NCBI GenBank assembly: GCA_025558075.1
Contig: JAHLKF010000005.1
Span: forward strand, 1,146,510-1,210,509
Length of the DNA stretch: 64,000 bases
Source: Gaertneriomyces semiglobifer
Lineage: Eukaryota > Chytridiomycota > Chytridiomycetes > Spizellomycetales > Spizellomycetaceae
Direction: 5' to 3'
The translations under genes and the position numbers were made by a program. Below the pieces are notes generated by a model. That model did not search any database. It saw only the letters and a program-made list of their open reading frames with translations, and had not been told where the DNA came from. Of the stretch, positions 33,033-64,000 are shown one piece after another. Position 1 is the stretch's first letter, and every line of letters begins with the position of its first letter.

Positions 33033-34461
33033 ATGTCCATGAAGCAAGAAAAGGGCCTTATCAACGCCTACCTCGACCAAACAGAGCCAGGACGATGGTC
33101 CGTCCAGGAGTTTCTGAAGTATGGCTCGCAGCAATGCTCAACCTTCGTCAATTATGGTTTGGATACCTGGATGGATACCCTCCGAAAAGTTATTAACCAT
33201 CGATGCGATAAGTTGGCGGCCGGGAAGTCTGAGAACGACGAGCAGGTGACGAAGGGCATTCCCAGCAGAATAGCGGCAGGGCGCGCGATGCTCTCAATGA
33301 AGGTAGAGTGAAATATTTCGCAGCCAGCTGGACCAAATTACTGACATCCTTCCAGCGCGAAGTTTGGGCTAACTTCAAAGCATGGTACCGCGACCAGTGT
33401 CATGCGCATCAGGTAATTATCGAGGTAAACCCTCTCGTGCTAACGGCAGTCAGTCAAAGGGCCAACGTCCTCGGAGAAACCCTGGGGAGAAAGCGACCCA
33501 GTGCAGGGCATTCCAAAGAAAGGTCCTGCATCACCGCGCACGCCAGAGAACCGTCGCGAGTCTTCACCAGCGGAATATCAAGAGGCCTCCCTCAGTGAAG
33601 ACCATGAAACCATCAGCGCTCCCCACGGAAGCGAGTCTGAACGCCATCCGCCTGCCTGTATTCCTCGATGTTGAAACCGATATGGCGGGTAAAGAGCCCG
33701 AAGTTGATTCTTTCTTTGAAGCTATCAACGCATCCCAGCAATTCTTGGGATTCCAAAAAGCCGCATTCCGGATCGGCCAGACACAAGGGTTAACTTTCGA
33801 GAGTCACGTCCATGAGATGTCAGCACTCTCCTCAGTGCTGCTTGTGAAACCGGCAGAGCACTCACGAGTACAGCGAGTTGAATTTTTCCAACAATCATTC
33901 CTCGACAGGTTCGGCGGCCACGTCCTTGCTAGCATTGGGCTTGCGCCAAGTGAGCTCACAGACGAGCTACAACTGTTCTTGCGCAAGACGTGCACAGAAG
34001 TCGCCGCGTTGGGTGTATTGTCAGATTCGCTGGACGCGCGAATTCTCGATCGCATGATTTCGCAGCCAAAGGAAAAGCGCATCTTGGACACGTTCCGGAC
34101 GCTGCTGCGTGACCTTCCAAAAAAGAAAATCAACATGGCGAGTTACACAGAGTCGGATCTGATTGCATCTTATTTGCATTCATTTATGAAGTTGTTTTTC
34201 GGTAGGAACGCTCTCGTGCGGTTATCGTGGCTAAACACAGCTTCAACTGCGGCTGTTCAAGCCAGAACCGAGATGGCCCAGAGCGGCCAAGCGAGACAAC
34301 CGGATATGATAATGTTCACCGTCAAAGCATCAAGGGAGCACCAGGAGGTTGGGTACGGCGAAGTCAAGGTGCAGAGTCGCCAAGAAGACACATTTGCGCT
34401 GAACGTCGACCTTTATCGGTTGGGGAAGTTCGCCATTGACCGTCTTGGCGAACTTCCCTAA
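33033..34461 (+). pseudogene. PD-(D/E)XK-nuclease-like protein, frame cut by a palindrome
   Basis: Four exons (33033-33302, 33356-33412, 33450-33657, 33722-34461) join in phase to 424 residues. Exon 1 is helical, exon 3 is Ser/Pro-rich, and exon 4 carries a globular domain. Its core (QARQPDMIMF, then EVGYGEVK after a short loop) has the D...ExK spacing of PD-(D/E)XK nucleases and resembles the variable, often multi-copy restriction-nuclease-like proteins of early fungi (family-level impression only). The frame stops at TAA 34459-34461, inside a 25-bp inverted repeat. Sequence typical of the domain's C-terminus (ICLYYGVLHGDGLYIVIE) reappears from about 34,570 and splices in phase to a last exon ending at 34,851. 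I therefore think the gene is either truncated by the palindrome or expressed through an intron I could not resolve. Confidence 0.6.
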
Positions 34462-54546: not shown

Positions 54547-54620
54547 GCCCTCGTGGTGTAGTGGATTAGCACTTCTGACTTCTAATCAGACGGTCGCAGG
54601 TTCGAACCCTGCCGGGGGCG
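54547..54620 (+). tRNA. tRNA-Arg (anticodon UCU)
   Basis: The cloverleaf folds cleanly. The acceptor stem GCCCTCG pairs with CGGGGGC, the D stem is GTGT/GCAC, the anticodon stem is TCTGA/TCAGA around loop CTTCTAA (anticodon TCT), and the T stem is GCAGG/CCTGC around TTCGAAC, with discriminator G. No intron. A short T run at 54625-54628 can terminate Pol III. The 3' half of this gene is repeated downstream and marks the apparent edge of the virus-like region. Confidence 0.95.
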
Positions 54621-54883
54621 CACTCTTTTGCGAAAAACTAGGTGGTCGCGCTTCGAACCCTGCCGGGGGCGCACTCTTTTGCGAAAAACTAGGTGGTCGC
54701 GCTTCGAACCCTGCCGGGGGCGCACTCTTTTGCGAAAAACTAGGTGGTCGCGCTTCGAACCCTGCCGGGGGCGCACTCTTTTGGGAAAAACTAGGTGGTC
54801 GCGCTTCGAACCCTGCCGGGGGCACTCTTTTGCGAAAAACTAGGTGGTCGCGCTTCGAACCCCGTCTGGCGGTTTTTTTTTTT
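54621..54883 (+). repeat. Tandem array of tRNA-Arg 3'-end copies
   Basis: Units begin at 54621, 54672, 54723, 54774 and 54823 (period 51, last 49). Each has a ~30-nt spacer (CACTCTTTTGCGAAAAACTA core) followed by the variable loop, T loop and acceptor end of the upstream tRNA, except that the AGG in the 5' T stem is replaced by GC. The final unit degenerates (CTTCGAACCCCGTCTGGCGG) into a T11-12 run. The units lack the 5' half of a tRNA, so they are not genes. The layout fits repeated site-specific insertion/excision at, or slippage next to, a tRNA 3' end. Confidence 0.9.
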
Positions 54884-55045
54884 TGGCCATTTTCCATGCC
54901 ATTCAGTTATCAATATGTCAGCCAGTTCCAGCTGTCAAGACGCGTTCTCCGCTTTCCCAGCTGTCAACTGGCGAGTGATACATCTTGCACGCATTCCAAA
55001 CCGGAAAAGCGGTTTAAGACGGCGGTTTCAATTTCCGTATTTAGT

Positions 55046-55650
55046 CACTTCCATTTTGATTAGCTGCAACAGATTGGAGGGTTGCACTCACTGATTTCAT
55101 AGATTTTTTCTCTTTCCTGTGTCTTCAGTGACCACCGTATGGATTACTTTTATTTCATTACAATTGTCAACACAGACACAGGAAAAAAAACAGTTTCGGC
55201 ATGCAGCCACTTCCGTCTCGTCTGCAACAGATCAGAGGGTTGCCACTCACTGATATATGATAGGTTGCGACTTTTCTCTTTCCTGTGTCTCTGTTGACGA
55301 CTGTATGGATTACTATTATTTCATTACAATTGTCAATGTAGACACAGAAAAGAAAACAGTTTCGGAATCCAGTCGCTTCCGTTTCGATTAGCTGGAACAG
55401 ATCGGAGGGTTGCACTCACCGATTCCATAGATTTTTTCTCTTTCCTGTGTCTCTGTTGACGACTGTATGGATTACTATTATTTCATTACCATTGTCAATG
55501 TAGATGCAGAAAGGACACCAGTTTCAGAATCCTGCCGTTTCGATTAGCTTCAACTGATTTCATGGATTTTTTCTCTTTCCTGTGTCTTCGTTGACAACCA
55601 CATGGATTTAGTGTTTTTTCCTCGTCAACAAAGACATAGGAAAGAAAAGC
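55046..55650. repeat. Four tandem ~160-bp units, each with a ~20-bp hairpin
   Basis: Units begin near 55046, 55208, 55374 and 55534 and diverge by several per cent. Each has an A/G-rich lead (GATTAGCTGCAACAGAT...GGAGGGTTGCACTCAC), then TTTCTCTTTCCTGTGTCT followed by GTTGAC, a 30-40-nt loop, and the inverted arm GTCAA...AGACACAGGAAA. In the last unit the arms match at about 19 of 21 positions. They lie between the tRNA array and the first virus-like gene, so an origin, packaging site, terminal repeat or transcriptional control region are all possible. Confidence 0.85.
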
Positions 55651-55662
55651 CTTCCACTGAGG

Positions 55663-55672
55663 TATAAATGAG
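55663..55672 (+). promoter_or_regulatory. TATA box of the first virus-like gene
   Basis: GGTATAAATG directly follows the last hairpin unit, 120-130 nt before the ATG at 55793. This spacing is longer than for the minus-strand genes of the element. Confidence 0.55.
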
Positions 55673-55792
55673 AACACTCTCACTCTTGGCTGGCCAGAAT
55701 CTCGACAAAATCTCACGGACAGAAGGCCAATAGAAGTTCATATCTCTCGCTTTTCTCTTAAACAATTCTTTACTTTCTTCGCTGGGTTCGCC

Positions 55793-56563
55793 ATGTTCGG
55801 CCCCCTTACATTTCCCGTTGGAACAACTTTTGCAACCATCCAAAAAGACCTGACGAATGTTCTGGTCGACAACTGGACGAAGGAGCGCTCGTCCATCGAA
55901 TTCTTGGAACTTGCCGGCGCCGAAACCATCGATGTTCGCAAGCTTGAAGGCCCTTTGAACGGCCGTGCAAAGAGTTTCTATGGATTAACCGAGTTTCAAT
56001 CTCGACCTCTCGGCTGCTTGTGGAAGCAGGAGAAAAGGGACGCCATTGTACAGTTGATGCATCAACATTTGAGAGACCCTTTCGCCATGCCCGAGGTGTT
56101 GAACTCCTTTGATGCCGTGGCAGTGGATGAAGTCCTTGGCAATGGGATCATCAGGGAGGCCGATGATGATCAACTGAACAGCATCCAGTTCACCTTATAC
56201 TGGATGACATTAACCGTCGACAATCGAGTGGATGAAGACGGCAGCACTGGTTTTCGCCGCACCTTGGACACCTTCAAAGCAATTCGGCTAGGGGATACCA
56301 TCTACGCCAACTTTCTCAGTGAAATCCACAGCGTGCAAAGGGAAACAATCAGTTTGCACTATGTCGGAATCACAGTACGAAACCCTGGCCTACACATCAC
56401 GGAGCATCTTGCGGCCAGCGACAGAACTGTCTCTCGCTTCCAGGCAATGCGGTTGGCGGCAGGGGATGATCTGCAGAGCGTTTCAGCACACACCCTACTG
56501 ACCGCGGAGCTTCCGGTGGCAGTGGCACTACCGGGGTCACAAGCACGAGAGAAGGGGGCATGA
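55793..56563 (+). CDS. Unknown 256-residue protein of the virus-like element
   Basis: Single exon, first gene after the tRNA array and hairpins, preceded by a TATA box. The protein is mixed alpha/beta with no signal peptide or membrane segment. It has an acidic central part (EVLGNGIIREADDDQLNS) followed by likely beta strands (IQFTLYWMTLTVDNRV; TISLHYVGITVRNP), which would fit a structural or jelly-roll-like protein, but I recognise no family. The C-terminus is Ala/Arg-rich. It faces away from the other complete genes of the element, which lie on the minus strand, so it may be a differently timed gene. Confidence 0.75.
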   Translation: MFGPLTFPVGTTFATIQKDLTNVLVDNWTKERSSIEFLELAGAETIDVRKLEGPLNGRAKSFYGLTEFQSRPLGCLWKQEKRDAIVQLMHQHLRDPFAMPEVLNSFDAVAVDEVLGNGIIREADDDQLNSIQFTLYWMTLTVDNRVDEDGSTGFRRTLDTFKAIRLGDTIYANFLSEIHSVQRETISLHYVGITVRNPGLHITEHLAASDRTVSRFQAMRLAAGDDLQSVSAHTLLTAELPVAVALPGSQAREKGA

Positions 56564-56907
56564 TAGTTTGGGACAACATTTTGGATATCGATCACGCAAA
56601 AGTGGGTGCGGCAGCGGAGTAAATTTCGGATAAATTTCATAGATTTCGGATATATTTCGTAGATGTCGGGTGTGGCGCGTTTTGTGATGAAAAGAATGGA
56701 AACAATGGAAATGTATGAAAGTTTCGTGAAAGAAATAGAGTTTGGATTGTGCACGTGACCCGAAGTTTGGGTGCGGGGTGACACCGAGTGAGGCGAGTGA
56801 CTCATGCACACAGCACAAGAGGGCGGTCGGACAACAATGAGAAAGGCAAACGGTTTTTGCGACAAGAACTAGGATGATGTATTAAATATATAACAGAAAT
56901 ACGATGA
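56564..56907. other. Convergent intergenic region with short tandem repeat
   Basis: 344 bp between two convergent genes of the element. About 2.5 copies of a 20-nt unit (ATTTCGGATAAATTTCATAG type) lie at 56625-56670. Otherwise empty. Confidence 0.5.
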
Positions 56908-57360
56908 CTAGGCAATATCAAGATGGATGTGCGTGCTGAGAATGTTGAGTCCACCGTCTAGCTTACATTGAACACAGGACATATAGTTCTCACTGATGTT
57001 TTGAAGGAAACAATCATTGCAGTAGAGGTGGGCGCATTTCGGAAGTTTCAAGAGACCGGCAACCAAATTGTTGCAAAGGCAGCAACAGACTGTTTCAATA
57101 GGACAGCTTAGAACCGCGGAACAAAATGGGCCTCTACATATCATATCAGAGAGCGTGGCAAAGCAACCAGGGTGGTAATAGTGGTAGCAATTGGTGTACA
57201 CCCGAAGAGTGTTGGGGAGAATGGCTTTGAGACAGACACTACAGTCGGTCTTGAAGTTGCTACCCTGTGAGGCTGTGACGTAAGGAGGAGGAGGAGGAGG
57301 AAGAGGAGGACGAGGGGGAGAAGAGGAGGAATCATCGTGAATAGTATTGTGATGGGCCAT
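56908..57360 (-). CDS. RING-like double zinc-binding protein of the element
   Basis: A single exon of 150 residues. After a Ser-rich stretch and a polyproline run (encoded by GGA repeats near 57,280-57,320) come two Cys/His clusters: CSVCLKAI...CYHYYHPGCF and CCCLCNNLVAGLLKLPKCAHLYCNDCF, ending CVQC. The second has C-x2-C...C-x-H-x2-C-x2-C spacing as in RING fingers. Viral RING proteins often act as ubiquitin ligases or transcription regulators; that role is inferred. I chose the Met at 57360 (MAHHN) over the in-frame Met at 57411 because it places the start about 70 nt from an AT-rich TATA-like element (CCTTAAATT, 57428-57436), as in the neighbouring genes. Confidence 0.65.
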   Translation of the reverse strand: MAHHNTIHDDSSSSPPRPPLPPPPPPYVTASQGSNFKTDCSVCLKAILPNTLRVYTNCYHYYHPGCFATLSDMICRGPFCSAVLSCPIETVCCCLCNNLVAGLLKLPKCAHLYCNDCFLQNISENYMSCVQCKLDGGLNILSTHIHLDIA

Positions 57361-57479
57361 GCTTGAGAGATGTGAGGCAGAGAACAGGAAATAGGAGAGC
57401 TTTCGCAGCATAAAAGCTTTCGCAAAAAATTTAAGGGGTAGTCAAACACAAACATTCGTGTTCTAATTATGAGAGTGAG

Positions 57480-57863
57480 TCATACACATGTACTGTCGTG
57501 TTGAATCGTGTATGGGTTTCCGTCAGGACCTTGAACTTGAACTTTGAAGGTTGTCGGTAACACTTTCCAAACACTACCGTAAGGATAGGGGCGAGCGGTG
57601 TAGATACAATGGTCCCAGAAAAAGATCAATCGATTGAAGCGAGGATCAAGTGCTGCAAACAGGTGCAGTCCAACAGCAGAATCGAGAGAGTGGAGAAGGC
57701 GTGTAAATGCAAAAGAATCAGCATTCATAAAGCGACCACTCAAGGGTGTTTTGACAATAACAACGTGTCTATAAGCAAACGCTGCAACAGGGTCGGTGAC
57801 TCTGAGGGTATGCTTGAGGGCATCGTCGCAAGCATCATCCGCTTCGGTTTTACGCTTGACCAT
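57480..57863 (-). CDS. Element protein, paralogue A of a tandem pair
   Basis: A single exon of 127 residues from the ATG at 57863 (MVKRKTEADD), about 70 nt downstream of a TATA box. It resembles its neighbour at 57967-58494 along its length. Shared features are a basic start, HxxxVKxPLxGR, a central H-x-LD-x-x-x-x-L-x-LF block, a RLIFFWDHCIY / RRILFWAHAVY segment, and a C-terminal Q-G-x-D-G-N-x-Y motif ending in Cys-Val. No known family recognised. Compact alpha/beta fold without membrane segments. Confidence 0.75.
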   Translation of the reverse strand: MVKRKTEADDACDDALKHTLRVTDPVAAFAYRHVVIVKTPLSGRFMNADSFAFTRLLHSLDSAVGLHLFAALDPRFNRLIFFWDHCIYTARPYPYGSVWKVLPTTFKVQVQGPDGNPYTIQHDSTCV

Positions 57864-57930
57864 GAGTGAGAATGAGAACTGAAATAACACTATAGAAATG
57901 TTTCGAGGGAGTGGCGAACAGTGTAGAGCT

Positions 57931-57940
57931 TTTATATTTT
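57931..57940 (-). promoter_or_regulatory. TATA box of paralogue A
   Basis: Reads AAAAAATATAAAAGC on the minus strand, about 70 nt before the ATG at 57863. The same A-rich lead and spacing recur upstream of the two following minus-strand genes. Confidence 0.7.
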
Positions 57941-57966
57941 TTACATCGTTATTTAAAACCATGGTC

Positions 57967-58494
57967 TTATTGTTGGATGTATCCGACAGGTTGTTCAACA
58001 CAACAGATATTATGGTGTTTCAACATGTAAATATTCCCTTGACGATCTTGCGCCTGAATACGACACCTATGCGGTTTAATCTTCCAACACATGACTTCCA
58101 ACGGTTTGGTGGGACAGTCGTCGTTGGAAATTTTGTCGATTCTTCTAGCAAGTTCGAGTTCATCTGGAAACCCTTCGATGTACAACGGACACAATGGAAT
58201 ATGTTCGTTGATCCATGTGTATCGTTTTCCGACCGAGTAGACAGCATGGGCCCAGAAGAGGATACGTCGTCCAATACCGCGATCGAAATAGGTGAACAAC
58301 TGGAGCTTGGTGATTGCATCGAGGGTGTGAACAATTCGGACATCGTAGAAGAGTTCGTTGGAGACTCGCCGACCATCTAACGGATGTTTGACAAAATCAA
58401 TATGTCTTGCTACAAAGCGTTGAATGTTGTCGTAAGCCGAAACAGTTCGTTTCAACGTGTGGTCTGGTCTGTCTTGGGCTTGTCGTTTGCCCAT
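57967..58494 (-). CDS. Element protein, paralogue B of a tandem pair
   Basis: A single exon of 175 residues from the ATG at 58494 (MGKRQAQDRPD), about 60 nt from its own TATA box. It is related to paralogue A but longer at the C-terminus by insertions around the motif equivalent to QGxDGN. The two genes probably arose by tandem duplication within the element. The 5' end overlaps the 3' end of the VLTF3-like gene by about 43 nt, a compaction typical of viral genomes. Function unknown. Confidence 0.75.
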   Translation of the reverse strand: MGKRQAQDRPDHTLKRTVSAYDNIQRFVARHIDFVKHPLDGRRVSNELFYDVRIVHTLDAITKLQLFTYFDRGIGRRILFWAHAVYSVGKRYTWINEHIPLCPLYIEGFPDELELARRIDKISNDDCPTKPLEVMCWKIKPHRCRIQAQDRQGNIYMLKHHNICCVEQPVGYIQQ

Positions 58495-59265
58495 TGTAAG
58501 ACAGGATTCTGCTCCTTCATGTTTGAAAGTAGCTGGGAGAGTTGCTTCCTTTTTATACTTGTACGAGCCCAAGGGATCCGATAGGGTGGTAGGATAGTAT
58601 GCCGATGAAGTAGCATGAGCACAACGTACTGGACCTTGGGAAACCGTTGGCGACCAAGCGATCCTTGTTTTTTGAGGTAATCAAAAGTCCGATGAAGTTG
58701 AAAGGCATCTTCCAGAACAAGTTGCACCTTATGGTACGGAACGTTCCACCGTGGACCACCAAGCCGGGAAATCAGTAGGGGTATAGCGGGATAAAGATGA
58801 GGGAGCTTGCGTTGCTTTAGGTACTTTCGAATAACTTCATAGATATTGCGAGATATCAACAGGGATCCGTGGATGTGTTTCTTTAAGTCACTTTCCAACG
58901 TGGGCGGCAGTTTGGTGGTCGCATGTCCTAGAAGCTGAAAGAAGGTTCTACGTATTCGATAAAGTCGATCATAGTGGTGTGTGCGTTGGCGGTTCATTTT
59001 CCATTGTTGCTCGTCCTGATAATCCATAACCATGGGATGCGCAGTTTCCTCATCTTCGACAACAGTACCGGTGGTAACCAAAAGTTTCAGGGTCGCACCA
59101 AGCAATTTGGGAGGACGTGAATATCGGAAGATGATCGTCGTCTGAGTCATAATAGGCGGGCTCGGAGGGTAACAATGGTGGGGAACGTGGCGCAGGATCA
59201 TTAGGAACGTTATGGGCCGAGTTCCATTCATCAGGACTAACCTCGATCCCCAACTCGGCAAGCAT
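58452..59265 (-). CDS. VLTF3-like viral late transcription factor, frame shifted once
   Basis: The C-terminal 190 residues (from about 59,020 to the stop at 58,452) follow the pattern of the poxvirus/nucleocytovirus VLTF3 C-terminal domain: HHYDRLYRIRRTFFQLL (YKRINHF-type helix), LPPTLESDLKKHI, IRKYLKQRKLPHLYPAIPLL then ISRLGG, FQLHRTF, then a PPYRIPWARTSIKRKQLSQL end. In viruses this factor directs late gene transcription. The N-terminal part lies in another frame, starting at an ATG at 59265 (or 59316) and ending in TGA at 59050-59052, in the middle of a Cys-rich segment (WCDPETFGYHRYCC) expected to be the zinc-binding region. A +1 shift there would link the halves. This could be decay, programmed frameshifting, an unrecognised short intron or an assembly error. 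The start at 59265 sits about 60 nt after a TATA box. Confidence 0.6.
58551..58560 (-). promoter_or_regulatory. TATA box of paralogue B
   Basis: Reads CAAGTATAAAAAGG on the minus strand, 57-66 nt before the ATG at 58494, and lies inside the coding frame of the VLTF3-like gene. Confidence 0.7.
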
Positions 59266-59318
59266 GGACAGGAAAGCTGGGTAGGACAGAAAAGAGAAAT
59301 GAAAAAAAGTACTCATGC

Positions 59319-59330
59319 CTTTATATATTT
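59319..59330 (-). promoter_or_regulatory. TATA box of the VLTF3-like gene
   Basis: Reads AAAAAATATATAAAGG on the minus strand, 54-65 nt before the Met at 59265 and immediately after the stop codon of the upstream GDPD/fibre frame. Confidence 0.7.
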
Positions 59331-59331
59331 T

Positions 59332-61656
59332 TTACAATGGGGCAACACGATAGAGAGTCAGACCACTACCGATCCAACTCAGTATTAACTCTGCTATTGT
59401 TGGACCATCTGTTGATCTTATACGTATTCGTAACAATGTGTTTGCTTCTGCAATTGGAATTAACCATCGACCTTCCATTCGTCCATCCTGTGGGATGGTT
59501 TGTGTGTATTGTCCTCCCTCCACATAAACACTCGACGATGGAGCCTTCAGACGATAGTTTGTCCAGACTTTGGCATTGCCAGTCATTCCACCCGTTAGCC
59601 CCGAAAAATCAACATGGTAAACACCCGGTTCAACGATAAGTATTTCATTACGGTTCGCCGTGACCAGTTGAATCAGACTTGTTTGTACTGGTGTATCTGA
59701 CCAAAGCACATACATTTCTTTAGTAGCGGAAGGCACTTCGGGTTCAGCAAAAATTGTATGGTCTGTTGTTTTAAACACAGCGTATGCGGGGGCTGCGATG
59801 GAAGTGTTCAAAGTTGGTTTGTTGGTGAGTTCTTCATAAGACAAGGTCTCTTTGAGTGCCAAAGCACCAAGCGTCGGTTTGTTGATGATATCGTTGCTAT
59901 TCCAGTCCAGACTCTGTTTGAGTGCCAGGGCGCCTATAGGTGCACCCTTCACTTTCAGGTTACCCAACATGTTCACATCCCCTGTCCCAGGTTCCACGGC
60001 AATTCCGCCATTTACATTGTCAGACTGTAGTAGCAGAGACCCTCCACCGGTATTACGCAACATACAGGTGTTCGGTCCACCGTTGCCGGTGTATATAGAT
60101 GAATTGTATTGGAGAAAAGCCCCCTTGGTGGTATCGTTAGCAAGGCGTACTTGTGTAAAAGCACCTGCATGCTTGAATCGGTTGGTGCATATCATTTGAA
60201 CCATTGTGGAATTCACAGCCTTGCTGCCAACGTTCATAGAACCCGTTGTTTCAATGTTGGTGTATTCCATGTAATGTGTAGAATCACCGGTTCCAACAGT
60301 GCCTGGCGAGTTTGGCACATAGTACTCAATGTACCCTTGATGCACACCGTTGCTCAACAAAGTCAAGTGTCCAAGACTTAACCAAGGTGTGTTGGCCACA
60401 TTGGTGAATGTGGACAGAAGCACTCGTGTTGATGCAACTAATTCAGATCGGGTATTGCCAACGTACACCGAAAGCTCAACTGTATCGGAGATCGTCTGAC
60501 GCACGATACGGAAATAGAGATGGCGCGGATCCGGTAGGGTGTGGGTTGCAGAAGCTACTTTTGTCGGTTCACTGTTAAAGCATGTATATACATCCACCAC
60601 ACGATTGGCCCGGAAGAGGATGTTGATTTGCGGTGGTCGGTTCCCAGGTTGGTCGTCCACTTCGTACGTATCAAACATACGAATAAGGACACCAAACCAT
60701 CTGGTACTCTCACCAACAGCGTTGAGCCGGATACGCCCTTCAATGGTTGCATCGAGATGATAGTTGTGAAACACCGCTCCATACATCTTACTCAAATTGT
60801 CTGATGATCCTGCAACAGACAATCGCGCTGCCCATCTTTTCGGTAACCAATCGTAACGAGCGAACCGTGGCTTGCCAGCCACACCATAGAACAATTTTGT
60901 GGATACGTATCCGTTGAGAGGATCCAAACATTCCCACTGATACGGAGCAAAGGATCTGTACCATTGCGAAACCGGTACGGGTGCATCTGCATACGCACCC
61001 ACAACGCGCTCATACTGTTCCCGATAGGTTTTCCATTGGTGAGGAGAATCCAAAGTGTACAAGAACAGATGTTTCTCCAAATTGTCAGCGACGGGATACA
61101 TTGTACTCAGTTGATCATGAGAACAACACAGATGGTCATACGTTGTAGGATCCTGAGCTTGGACATCGGTTGCATTGTTGACTGTCCAAATGGTTAAATA
61201 GCCGGCCGCTTTGAAAAATGTAACTTGATCTATTTCAAAGTCAGAGAACACCATCCGGTCTGGAGTCAACCCAATGGCTCGACATTCATCCAATAAGGCG
61301 GCAGGGTCCCCATTTTTGAGTTCCAAGAAAATGATGACCTGAGGGTACTTTCTCAAAGCATCCCAAGCTTCACGTAAAGTTGGTAACGGTTCACCGTCAA
61401 AGAGATGTGACCATCCAGATTTGAGGTGCCCTTTTTGGAGCTGCTCAGAGGTAGTTCCTGGATACTCGTATTCTTCCATGTTGTTGTGTGACAGGTACCA
61501 GACACCATCGAGGGTACGGCAGACATCAAATTCGATATACTTGAGTCTCCCCCTTTGAATCAGACGTTCCACATTTGATAACGAATAGATAGGAATCGAT
61601 AATGGTCCAAAACGATGGGCAATAATAATGTTACGATCGGACTTGTCAAGTTCCAC
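59332..61656 (-). CDS. Glycerophosphodiester phosphodiesterase domain fused to a virion-fibre-like C-terminus (3' block of a broken long gene)
   Basis: 774 codons, entered without an ATG (first codon after the preceding stop that can start is GTG at 61656), so it is probably the 3' block of a longer frame. Residues of about 8-190 show the GDPD TIM-barrel pattern: NIIIAHRFG, then IEFDVCRTLDGVWYLSHNN (E-x-D and H-x-N catalytic positions), then IIFLELKNGD and a late LTIWTVNN strand. GDPD enzymes hydrolyse glycerophosphodiesters. Residues ~250-480 form a beta-rich lectin-like region. About residues 600-640 hold two copies of a GALALKxxL...NKPTL unit seen in phage and giant-virus fibres, and the last 120 residues look like a trimeric jelly-roll head. 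I infer a surface fibre that could bind or cleave host envelope lipids or teichoic-like polymers. Confidence 0.7.
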   Translation of the reverse strand: MELDKSDRNIIIAHRFGPLSIPIYSLSNVERLIQRGRLKYIEFDVCRTLDGVWYLSHNNMEEYEYPGTTSEQLQKGHLKSGWSHLFDGEPLPTLREAWDALRKYPQVIIFLELKNGDPAALLDECRAIGLTPDRMVFSDFEIDQVTFFKAAGYLTIWTVNNATDVQAQDPTTYDHLCCSHDQLSTMYPVADNLEKHLFLYTLDSPHQWKTYREQYERVVGAYADAPVPVSQWYRSFAPYQWECLDPLNGYVSTKLFYGVAGKPRFARYDWLPKRWAARLSVAGSSDNLSKMYGAVFHNYHLDATIEGRIRLNAVGESTRWFGVLIRMFDTYEVDDQPGNRPPQINILFRANRVVDVYTCFNSEPTKVASATHTLPDPRHLYFRIVRQTISDTVELSVYVGNTRSELVASTRVLLSTFTNVANTPWLSLGHLTLLSNGVHQGYIEYYVPNSPGTVGTGDSTHYMEYTNIETTGSMNVGSKAVNSTMVQMICTNRFKHAGAFTQVRLANDTTKGAFLQYNSSIYTGNGGPNTCMLRNTGGGSLLLQSDNVNGGIAVEPGTGDVNMLGNLKVKGAPIGALALKQSLDWNSNDIINKPTLGALALKETLSYEELTNKPTLNTSIAAPAYAVFKTTDHTIFAEPEVPSATKEMYVLWSDTPVQTSLIQLVTANRNEILIVEPGVYHVDFSGLTGGMTGNAKVWTNYRLKAPSSSVYVEGGQYTQTIPQDGRMEGRWLIPIAEANTLLRIRIRSTDGPTIAELILSWIGSGLTLYRVAPL

Positions 61657-62050
61657 TTTTTTGATGGTACCATCATCCGGAACACCACCATCACCACCAC
61701 CACCACACCACCATTATCGATGGCTTTTTGAATTTCCTGTTGCAATGTACGGTAGTTGACCAGTTCGGTTCCTTCGTACGCTGAGCCAGGATCACCCGTA
61801 GCATCATGATCATAGAATGCACGCGCATTACCATCCTCGTCTACAATCACTACAAAGGCGTCCGCGCCGTTAGAACCACCATAAGCTTTAGCAATGGCTG
61901 CGGTCGATAGTCCTAAACATGCAGCCAAAGCACCCATGGTAATGATGGTACCGTTGTTGGCATACCAAGAGACAACACTGTTTGCTAAACCTCCCAAAGA
62001 TCCAGCAACACCTTCCTTGACAAGATCTCCAGCTGCCGAGCTCCTTTGTC
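61560..62050 (-). CDS. Middle block of the broken fibre gene (Gly/Ala membrane-like segment)
   Basis: An open frame ending at 61560 and overlapping both neighbours. It reads SSAAGDLVKEGVAGSLGG (about 62,040-61,990), a hydrophobic Gly/Ala helix (TIITMGALAACLGLSTAAIA), then a short domain ending LQQEIQKAIDN. It then enters a GTG/GGT run at 61682-61713 where its phase differs from the GDPD block by one base. No ATG lies at its start. I read it as a piece of one ancestral frame running from 63534 to 59332. Confidence 0.5.
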
Positions 62051-62823
62051 CTGGAGCTTTTGTGCAAGGCTGATGACACCGTTGCTGATGCTTATTCCAG
62101 TTCCACCACTGTAATTTCCAGAAATTTTTCCGGTGTTGTTGTCCACACTGATACCTCCACTACCATGATAATTCCCTTTGATGATACGATGAAGACCATC
62201 CTGTGAGGTAGCAGTTGTCAAAGTAGCATTGTCCACCAGTTTGGTTAGGTCCACTTTGATCTTCACTTCTCCCGTGTCCGGATGAGTGTCAACGTTCAAC
62301 GTCTGATTGTCAATCAGGTTCTTGACATCCACTTCAATCAAATACAAAGGACGGTTGGATACATCCTGGGTTGTTTTGATACGAAGTGTCCTCTTATCAA
62401 TCAATCCTTCGGTTCGAACTGCTAGACGACCGGCAACGTCGGGATCGGGATATTCAGCTGGTGGACTTAACAACTGCTTCATCATTGTGTTGGTGTCAAA
62501 TTGAACGCCAAAGCTTGCCAACTTGGACGGCTTGGTGGTATCATTGTCTGGTTGGGGATCGTATGTGTGAAGTGTCCAGTCATGGTTGATGGACATTTGA
62601 AACTTAGCTTTGTCATAAGTCAGGGTTTTTCGATCCAGGATATGATGAAAATTGATGCTGAGACCGGGCGGTTTCTCGATGTCGTTGGCGGATAATGCAA
62701 CCAGCGTATCATCATGGATGACTGTTAGCGCTTTAGGCGTATATGGCATCCCTGTATCATCATCTAACGACAGCTCTTCATTGGTGTAGAGATCCTCAGT
62801 GTCCACAACATTGAGAGGGGTTT
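61985..62823 (-). CDS. Fibre-shaft-like block of the broken gene
   Basis: About 280 codons with repeated short units of alternating beta strands and turns (LVDNATLTT, LIDNQTLNV, LIDKRTLRI, ILDRKTLTY) and a Gly-rich end (GNYHGSGGISVDNNTGKISG). The regular 'ID-(N/K)-x-TL' spacing of 15-25 residues is like a triple-stranded beta-spiral shaft of viral fibres. Its phase differs by one base from the block upstream at the AAACCCC run (62817-62823, read on the minus strand), where the upstream block loses its frame. Confidence 0.55.
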
Positions 62824-63534
62824 GTAACGAATGTTGAGTTCTTTTTTCTTGAACGTCCCCGCCTTTCTCGGGGTGGTTGTGATAGATACAGGAGAGTCTT
62901 TTCCCGGTCGCATGAATCGCCAGACGTAGAAAACAGGTGCACACACATTGTCAGGAAACTCCATCACATTGAGAATGTTGAACCCTCCGGAAGTGATGTA
63001 TATCGGTGAGTAGACAGCACCTAAACTGATCGGTCCCAAGGGAAGCTCTCCATAAAAGAATTCCTTGCTACATTCGTAACCATCAGGATTGTCCGGGTCA
63101 TCCTTGTCGGAACCGCTTCCAAAGAGAACTTGACGGGCTCCAATGTTTTTGATCGTGAGTGTTCCGTCTTCTTTGATTTTGAAAAAGGTATCATCCGATT
63201 TGAGTTGGATCTTAGGATTCCCCGGTGTTTCTATAATGGGAGCGTCAAACGATTTGGCAGTCGACAGAGCTCCTTGAGGGGTGACTCGAAACTTCTCATT
63301 GTCCAGTTTGAGCGTCACAACGGCATTCTCTTCATCGATGAGTAACGGAGGTGCATGGTCAGGTATAAGGGCGGGGATGTCGGCCTTCACTGCTAACTGA
63401 TCGTCCTCATTGATTTTCAACGATGTCGGATCCAGGCGAAGCGTAATCTTGTTGTTACTATCCACAACGAGAGGAACGTCAGCACTCACACCGCCTACAC
63501 CGCCCGGTCGACGTCCAATAGTGGAGCCACCCAT
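62764..63534 (-). CDS. N-terminal fibre-shaft-like block (start of the broken gene)
   Basis: 256 codons from an ATG at 63534. After a Gly-rich tail (STIGRRPGGVGGV) come shaft-like repeats of about 25-35 residues (PLVVDSNNKITLRLD; PLLIDEENAVVTLKLD; PKIQLKSDDTFFKIKEDGTL) that resemble adenovirus-type fibre shaft units in pattern, then a more globular beta region with two aromatic-rich strands. The last ~25 codons after the AAACCCC run look out of frame, because the other frame carries acidic, repeat-compatible sequence. It is divergent from the gene at 63618, with 83 bp between start codons. Confidence 0.6.
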   Translation of the reverse strand: MGGSTIGRRPGGVGGVSADVPLVVDSNNKITLRLDPTSLKINEDDQLAVKADIPALIPDHAPPLLIDEENAVVTLKLDNEKFRVTPQGALSTAKSFDAPIIETPGNPKIQLKSDDTFFKIKEDGTLTIKNIGARQVLFGSGSDKDDPDNPDGYECSKEFFYGELPLGPISLGAVYSPIYITSGGFNILNVMEFPDNVCAPVFYVWRFMRPGKDSPVSITTTPRKAGTFKKKELNIRYKPLSMLWTLRISTPMKSCR

Positions 63535-63617
63535 GGTTGGTTGGCTACGTATACTGTCGGTTGCATACTATCTAGCTGATCTTTTTGTGTGCATCTCATC
63601 ATATTGGGACAAACAAA

Positions 63618-64000
63618 ATGAACGCCGACCCTCGTTCACAGATCCTCCTGAACCAATTGGGAGACGTCCCAACGATTCCTCAACGCAAACTGGCTGTCTT
63701 TGTGGCGCCATTAGAGAAACTCAAGTTCAAAAAACGACGAGGGCGTGGGGGTGCCAGCTACAACGACCCAAATAACCTCGTCAAGGAACGCGTGAAGAAA
63801 GACCTCCCCGACAAAAACGAGGAAGACGATGATGAACCACATGTACAAGTTGATCCAAAACAAAAGGTAAGGAATTGGTTAGACAAGCTAAAACAGGACA
63901 CGCTGCTGCCGCCGACAACTTCCCTACCGAAAAGACACACGACAACACCCAACAAGGAAAAACATGGTGTTCCATCAGCGGACGAGAAAGAGGCACAAAA
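63618..64000 (+). CDS. Basic protein of the element, N-terminal 127 residues (runs off window)
   Basis: Open frame from an ATG at 63618 to the window edge with no stop. The sequence is Lys/Arg-rich (EKLKFKKRRGRGGASYNDP) with an acidic patch (KNEEDDDEPH) and a Pro/Thr-rich region. That composition would suit a core, scaffold or nucleic-acid-binding virion protein, but I recognise no family. It shares a short divergent promoter region with the fibre gene. Confidence 0.6.
   Translation, partial: MNADPRSQILLNQLGDVPTIPQRKLAVFVAPLEKLKFKKRRGRGGASYNDPNNLVKERVKKDLPDKNEEDDDEPHVQVDPKQKVRNWLDKLKQDTLLPPTTSLPKRHTTTPNKEKHGVPSADEKEAQ

Follow-up and report, generated by a model that had tools for sequence, protein, structure and literature searches.

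A probable Polinton or polinton-like virus end carrying a VLTF3-family gene, near an uninvolved tRNA-Arg gene, in the chytrid Gaertneriomyces semiglobifer

Near the right end of a 64,000-nucleotide stretch of the Gaertneriomyces semiglobifer genome (hereafter the window; contig C5, positions 1146510-1210509, in an assembly of 20.9 Mb and 66 contigs), a tRNA-Arg(TCT) gene is followed by compact open reading frames (ORFs) at 56.9-63.5 kb of the window. The original prediction for this locus was a virus-like element joined to the tRNA gene, which raises the question of whether such an element exists, where it begins, and what kind of virus it represents. Our answer, to which we give a probability of roughly 0.83, is that a Polinton or polinton-like DNA virus is integrated at the right end of the window, which shows its VLTF3/fibre end, and that the tRNA-Arg gene is uninvolved. 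The host belongs to the order Spizellomycetales according to a taxonomy look-up. The right edge of the window is also the end of the contig, and the element is therefore cut off there; G+C content is 0.501 in positions 1-54546 and 0.465 in positions 56547-64000.

We aligned the DNA of four other copies of the element (on contigs C25, C7, C28, and C32) to the window. All four aligned only from 56,540-56,547 rightward, and nothing in 54,622-56,539 aligned with any of them; in three of the four, identity to the window was 76-78% within the first 260 bases, and beyond these it was 90-94%. The first 24 bases of the element were also searched against the whole genome with up to 2 mismatches allowed, and this terminus was recovered at 31 sites (26 of them exact), compared with 0 for the reversed sequence used as a control. 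Because the copy alignments begin there and the terminus recurs at 31 sites against none in the control, the left end of the element is at 56,547, which lies 1,925 bp from the tRNA-Arg gene and inside an orphan frame that we refer to as ORF X. The inner 110 bp of the terminal inverted repeats agree at 105 of 110 positions between the two ends on C38, at 92% between those on C1, and at 90 of 110 positions between those on C35. The features at the boundary are these:

56547..56656, plus strand: left terminal inverted repeat of at least 110 bp (31 sites genome-wide, 0 for the reversed control)
56544..56547, no strand: CACG, candidate 4-bp target site (consensus CNNG), from flank comparison
55793..56563, plus strand: ORF X, an orphan ORF interrupted by the insertion, with its stop codon within the terminal repeat

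The bases immediately outside the termini follow a pattern. A C stands three bases outside the element (position -3) in 29 of the 31 termini and in 26 of the 28 distinct flanks; when similar flanks were clustered, it was present in 19 of 21 clusters (P 3.8e-10). The motif CNNG is complete across the junction in 28 of 31 termini, its G being part of the searched pattern and hence not independent evidence. Three pairs of facing termini were available, and the pair on C35 has CCCG on both sides, a single pair from which a 4-bp target duplication is likely. The recurrence of CNNG at 28 of 31 ends, together with the CCCG shared by one closed pair, suggests that integration is transposon-like.

The genes of this end of the element are as follows:

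56908..57411, minus strand: RING-like zinc finger protein of 167 amino acids (Pfam zf-RING_11, 4.7e-5, 23.4 bits, below the cut-off of 27)
57480..57869, minus strand: small protein, paralogue of the 57967..58572 product (BLASTP; no Pfam family)
57967..58572, minus strand: small protein, paralogue of the 57480..57869 product (BLASTP; no Pfam family)
58455..59277, minus strand: VLTF3-family gene, in two reading frames in the window copy (99% and 95% to the protein P0001)
59332..63534, minus strand: giant fibre gene, in four frames in the window copy, with an adenovirus-fibre-like N-terminus, a GDPD-like part, repeats, and an exchangeable C-terminal tip
59335..59858, minus strand: fibre tip cassette of type A (C-terminal end), with a sharp breakpoint relative to C25
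63585..63998, plus strand: divergent ORF running off the contig end (no Pfam family)

The two small proteins are 26% identical by BLASTP over 168 columns (E 3e-20). The VLTF3 and fibre genes of the window, which lie near the contig end, are split into several frames, and this may reflect decay or assembly error.

A search of the genome with the VLTF3-like protein of the window found 11 places, of which nine (the window included) are at 97-100% identity and two at 57%; all nine genes of this main family sit 1.8-1.9 kb inside a terminus. In the first alignment of the family, six of seven members matched Pfam VLTF3 at E values up to 1 (best 6.9e-4), and four of the six relatives that were scanned reach or exceed the Pfam cut-off of 25 bits: P0013, which is 45% identical, at 29.2; P0026 at 25.0; P0043 at 33.7; and P0042, found by the family profile at 4e-34, at 37.9. 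The other two, P0041 and P0035, gave no Pfam VLTF3 match at 0.01. A PDB profile search with the VLTF3 alignment returned 0 matches. As judged from sequence profiles, the predicted assignment to the VLTF3 family is a good one.

The N-terminus of the fibre protein weakly resembles that of avian adenovirus fibre (Pfam 21.6 bits; cut-off of the adenovirus-fibre family 22.7), and its middle part is weakly GDPD-like (PDB phmmer 7.5e-4; NCBIfam 17.7 bits, cut-off 264). In the pieces of C25 and C32 that were read, the fibre frame is open over 1,550 codons. The fibre tips differ between copies as a clean cassette: the tip is ~524 bp long in the window, C7, C63, and C38 and ~1,356 bp long in C25, C32, C28, C58, and C45, and when compared with C25 the alignments of the window, C7, and C63 all end at one identical base and resume near the VLTF3 side. 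Relatives of the type A tip at 26-27% identity occur at eight other places in the genome.

The opposite end of the element can be approached through other contigs. Ten termini have, 4.4-5.2 kb inside, a match to PF03175, which we take to be the Polinton/adenovirus-type, protein-primed family B DNA polymerase; these matches exceed the cut-off, the one on C38 only together with its neighbours in frame, and among 14 control genomes PF03175 matched in one and never over the cut-off. A match to the A32 ATPase (PF04665) follows 9.9-10.0 kb inside seven of these ten polymerase ends. On C38, a VLTF3 end at 33,886 faces a polymerase end at 80,768 with no further terminus match between them, a span of 46.9 kb. 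This span was rejected as the true element length, as a second element, likewise of Polinton type, is nested in it and interrupts the fibre gene of C38 between ~38.78 and ~62.20 kb. Its inverted repeats extend over 600 bp or more and agree at 599 of 600 positions, and it is accompanied by a duplication of 5 bp, CTCGT. The nested element contains an rve match and a pair of fibre-like genes, one of which is a weak match; a fibre with an F5/8 type C domain is located in the same interval. Subtracting the nested element leaves ~23.5 kb, which we infer to be the size of the intact element. Among the 40 VLTF3 relatives other than the two from Gaertneriomyces, the longest contig measures 24.2-27.7 kb in eight cases and never exceeds 27.7 kb, and the size of these contigs thus agrees with an element of ~23.5 kb. 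In addition, six polymerase-end contigs (C2, C19, C30, C34, C39, and C47) end 27.7-27.9 kb inside the terminus, and the similar distance suggests some long repeat or a real end there.

Several observations weigh against this reconstruction, which should be interpreted cautiously. At the polymerase end, PF03175 matches on C52 (9.9 kb from the terminus), C45, C59, and C1 (C1:8816) depart from the 4.4-5.2-kb spacing; the A32 matches, at 22.2-25.8 bits against a cut-off of 22.8, are weak, two being above the cut-off only with neighbours, and PF04665 also matched in four of 14 control genomes, in two of them over the cut-off. The reading leaves out positions 63.9-70.5 kb of C38. The VLTF3 protein of the window scores 18.3 bits and P0001 19.3, both below the cut-off, and the capsid family of nucleocytoplasmic large DNA viruses (NCLDVs), PF04451, had no match over its cut-off genome-wide (best 17 bits, on C15). 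At the insertion sites, three of the 31 termini are not CNNG (C19, one end on C30, and another on C30 with A for G), the pairs on C38 and C1 have CGCG/CATG without matching duplications, and an empty site built from two flank families had 0 matches at up to 3 mismatches. No rve match lies in the stretches assigned to the element family on C38, C1, C7, and C10; rve has 77 matches in the genome, many in long retrotransposon-type frames. The same six polymerase-end contigs do carry an rve match, 25.3-25.5 kb inside the terminus, and lack a fibre match among the 58 of 79 candidates scored in the genome. The 23.5-kb model needs these six to be copies with another nested Polinton, which we assume. 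They also bear on an alternative in which the VLTF3/fibre end comes from one element family and the polymerase end from another, the two having terminal repeats in common, and C38 is a recombinant, so that the window element would be left without a demonstrated polymerase. Besides their rve match and missing fibre, five of the six have a second A32 match ~20 kb inside; furthermore, C38 and C1 share an identical 35-base right flank, found nowhere else at up to 3 mismatches, and differ in their left flanks, which points to a duplication or rearrangement there with at least one of the two rearranged, and on the divergent C45 copy the polymerase, fibre, and VLTF3 matches are all on one strand, unlike on C38. 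Nevertheless, C38 holds both ends with no terminus match between them, its length once the nested element is subtracted agrees with that of the relatives' 24-28-kb contigs, and on C45 the polymerase, fibre, and VLTF3 matches lie within ~12 kb. We regard two separate families as unlikely.

One may also postulate that an integrative element recombined at the 3′ end of the tRNA-Arg gene in the bacterial style of the original prediction, with the 51-bp array downstream of the gene (listed below) serving as attachment sites. The tail of the tRNA-Arg is indeed repeated five times directly downstream, and the second tRNA-Arg gene, on C4, is likewise accompanied by a tail array, with a fragment of ORF X beside it. 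The element, however, begins 1.9 kb to the right of this point, with a terminus that is present at 31 places, and 54,622-56,539 aligned with none of the four copies; when these copies were examined with ~4 kb of outer flank, the tRNAs that ARAGORN called, in three of the four, were all inside the element, and a T-arm motif was present in 0 of 31 outer flanks (35 bases), whereas the control tRNA-Arg tail has one. A tyrosine recombinase, which the original prediction had proposed to search for, was likewise absent: the genome, searched in six frames, yielded no match to Phage_integrase (PF00589), a family that was recovered in 14 of 14 control genomes. Both the junction at the tRNA and the tRNA-directed integration are contradicted by these results, and we consider this scenario highly improbable. 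The repeats of the tRNA tail at 54592-54862 are on the host side. The giant-virus-like VLTF3 family membership would also be accounted for if the sequence were the decayed remnant of a giant virus (Nucleocytoviricota or mriyavirus-like) and not of Polinton type, but the defined inverted repeats, the ~23.5-kb size, the PF03175 polymerase, and the absence of a Capsid_NCLDV match over the cut-off all argue against this and make it improbable. What the original prediction said of the contents fares better than its junction: a virus-like element in a chytrid genome is upheld, and so are compact genes with viral-type products (RING-like, VLTF3-like, and a GDPD-bearing fibre), individually weak as these matches are. 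Its large-DNA-virus affinity holds for VLTF3, the sole giant-virus-like gene, and fails on size and polymerase type, and of the capsid, ATPase, and polymerase genes that it named as tests, a PF03175 polymerase was found, the A32 matches were weak, and no NCLDV capsid exceeded the cut-off.

The host side of the junction, on which tRNAs were called by ARAGORN and Rfam, contains the following features:

54547..54621, plus strand: tRNA-Arg(TCT), a host gene and bystander (ARAGORN; Rfam 64.8 bits)
54592..54862, plus strand: 51-bp tandem array of 5.3 copies, made of the tRNA-Arg 3′ tail and downstream flank (repeat analysis)
55043..55648, no strand: 162-166-bp repeats with inverted arms, upstream of ORF X (inverted counterpart on C4)

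The tRNA-Arg(TCT) gene on C4 is complete and is also adjoined by a tail array, a shorter one (stretch L005, 8040-8131); no element terminus was present in the 10 kb read around it. Copies of the tail also occur on C46 (stretch L008, 5359-5393 and 8988-9026) without a tRNA call, alongside an ORF X-like piece, and the tandem tail arrays may be a separate tRNA-linked repeat. A unit consisting of the 162-bp repeats, the upstream region, and ORF X (window 55043-56546) adjoins both tRNA-Arg genes in opposite orientations, and its C4 version (L005 8131-8615, inverted) is cut at the junction with the tail array. Judged by eye, the frames at L008 1-3980 on C46 resemble a Copia-type retrotransposon.

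ORF X, the first larger ORF on the right side of the tRNA array, does not belong to the element and represents the target that the insertion interrupted. Apart from the piece on C46, its only relatives in the genome are on C17 (37% identity, in a frame of 667 amino acids) and on C4 (fragments), and the protein database held no relative except ORF X itself. The window ORF X has no Pfam family up to E 0.1, and for its C17 relative Pfam gave a single match, at 0.057 (13.8 bits, cut-off 25), and PDB nothing below 0.4. The idea, formed by eye, that ORF X encodes a GIY-YIG nuclease was dropped, there being no match.

Outer flanks are common to several insertions, forming two flank clusters of five places each; either certain host repeats were hit repeatedly, or the flanks were duplicated together with the element. 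That the two flank families are the sides of one target repeat is unsupported, given the result for the joined empty site. By eye, one C30 flank resembles the interior of another copy, and the C52 flank is palindromic.

Identity between the C25 and C32 copies reaches 99.6% over 2.5 kb, and the window copy is 90-94% identical to the four compared; the near-identity of copies, up to 99.6%, indicates that spread was recent and repeated. A tRNA-Asp(GTC) gene is located ~265 bp inward from the end in three of the four fetched copies and is absent from the window and from C28. Its positions in the fetched stretches (Rfam 46.6-48.1 bits) are:

L044, 4278-4350: tRNA-Asp(GTC)
L045, 4298-4370: tRNA-Asp(GTC)
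L047, 2183-2254: tRNA-Asp(GTC)

No relatives of the element were found among IMG/VR viral contigs, and the PHROGs families that matched were all of unknown function.

If the window is indeed one end of a Polinton or polinton-like virus, the intact element would be ~23.5 kb long, would have terminal inverted repeats of 110 bp or more as its boundaries, and would carry the RING-like gene, the paralogue pair, VLTF3, and the giant fibre gene at one end and an A32-type ATPase match and the PF03175 polymerase at the other. It would represent a linear virus genome copied by its own polymerase and inserted by DDE-type strand transfer at CNNG with a 4-bp duplication, as the one closed pair with CCCG suggests. 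VLTF3 may turn on the late genes, the particles would presumably have a double jelly-roll capsid (its gene was not seen here), and attachment would proceed via the fibre, the tip of which may be exchanged as a cassette between lineages. A bolder proposal, which we make only tentatively, is that these elements form a lineage of fungal double-stranded DNA viruses in which VLTF3 occurs together with a Polinton-type polymerase and inverted-repeat ends. Such viruses would integrate at CNNG, duplicating 4 bp, through an integrase that differs from the usual rve and tyrosine types, and would swap fibre-tip cassettes; they might be intermediate between the polinton-like and the nucleocytoplasmic viruses and still be mobile in a chytrid that can be cultured.

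The presence of VLTF3 in a Polinton-type genome, if true, bears on the origin of giant viruses, and the fibre cassettes offer a natural series for the study of change in an attachment protein. Gaertneriomyces semiglobifer is a culturable saprotrophic soil chytrid, reportedly grown in vitro in one published study, and with many near-identical copies, some with long open genes, it makes the existence of live viruses of this kind in fungi testable in the laboratory. A 2023 abstract states that no double-stranded DNA virus infecting fungi was known to date (PMC10640383). As judged from search listings, with subscription papers and preprints outside their scope, no paper on an integrated virus of Gaertneriomyces appeared. 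We likewise found no report of VLTF3 in a polinton-like virus in the available part of PMC11253617, and the term has 0 occurrences in the accessible text of PMC7805220, PMC10120064, and PMC10675990; its mentions in the available portions of PMC6905037, PMC6459981, PMC12638062, PMC11633385, PMC12945077, and PMC5294986 refer to NCLDVs, to virus-like contigs, or to NCLDV genes present in eukaryotes.

Spizellomyces belongs to the order Spizellomycetales, and the target duplication of Polintons/Mavericks is usually 6 bp. According to the accessible text of Bellas and Sommaruga (2021, PMC7805220), Spizellomyces punctatus contains an integrated polinton-like virus, after which a group with possible fungal hosts is named; polinton-like viruses have capsid, minor capsid, and ATPase genes in common and often end in terminal inverted repeats, three integrated ones have target duplications of 5-7 bp, and predicted E3 ligases occur in all groups except the S. 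punctatus group and Chi. Our element resembles the S. punctatus virus in that both are DNA viruses integrated in chytrids that belong to Spizellomycetales, and differs in having VLTF3, a term with 0 occurrences in the main text of that paper, and a RING-like gene, where no E3 ligase is predicted for that group in the same source. It is most likely of the same general kind, with the proviso that capsid phylogeny defines the S. punctatus group and no capsid gene was found here. With Polintons/Mavericks it shares the PF03175 polymerase, a weak A32-type ATPase match, terminal inverted repeats, size, and a fibre-like protein, and it departs from them in its CNNG site with a probable 4-bp duplication, its VLTF3, and the lack of rve in the assigned stretches. 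Mriyaviruses, as far as the available part of PMC11253617 describes them, similarly combine VLTF3 and a packaging ATPase, the latter weakly matched here, in a small genome, but one of 35-45 kb with an NCLDV-related capsid, in contrast to ~23.5 kb, terminal inverted repeats, PF03175, and no NCLDV capsid over the cut-off here; the same portion of that paper states that VLTF2 and VLTF3 homologues have so far been undetected outside Nucleocytoviricota. The endogenous giant-virus element of Rhizophagus irregularis also places integrated DNA virus genes in an early-diverging fungus; from the accessible part of PMC10640383, however, it is a continuous 1.5-Mb region with Asfarviridae affinity, whereas here the elements are short, repeated, and have defined ends. 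Taken together, the kind of element is already known from Spizellomycetales, and its odd feature is VLTF3 beside a Polinton-type polymerase.

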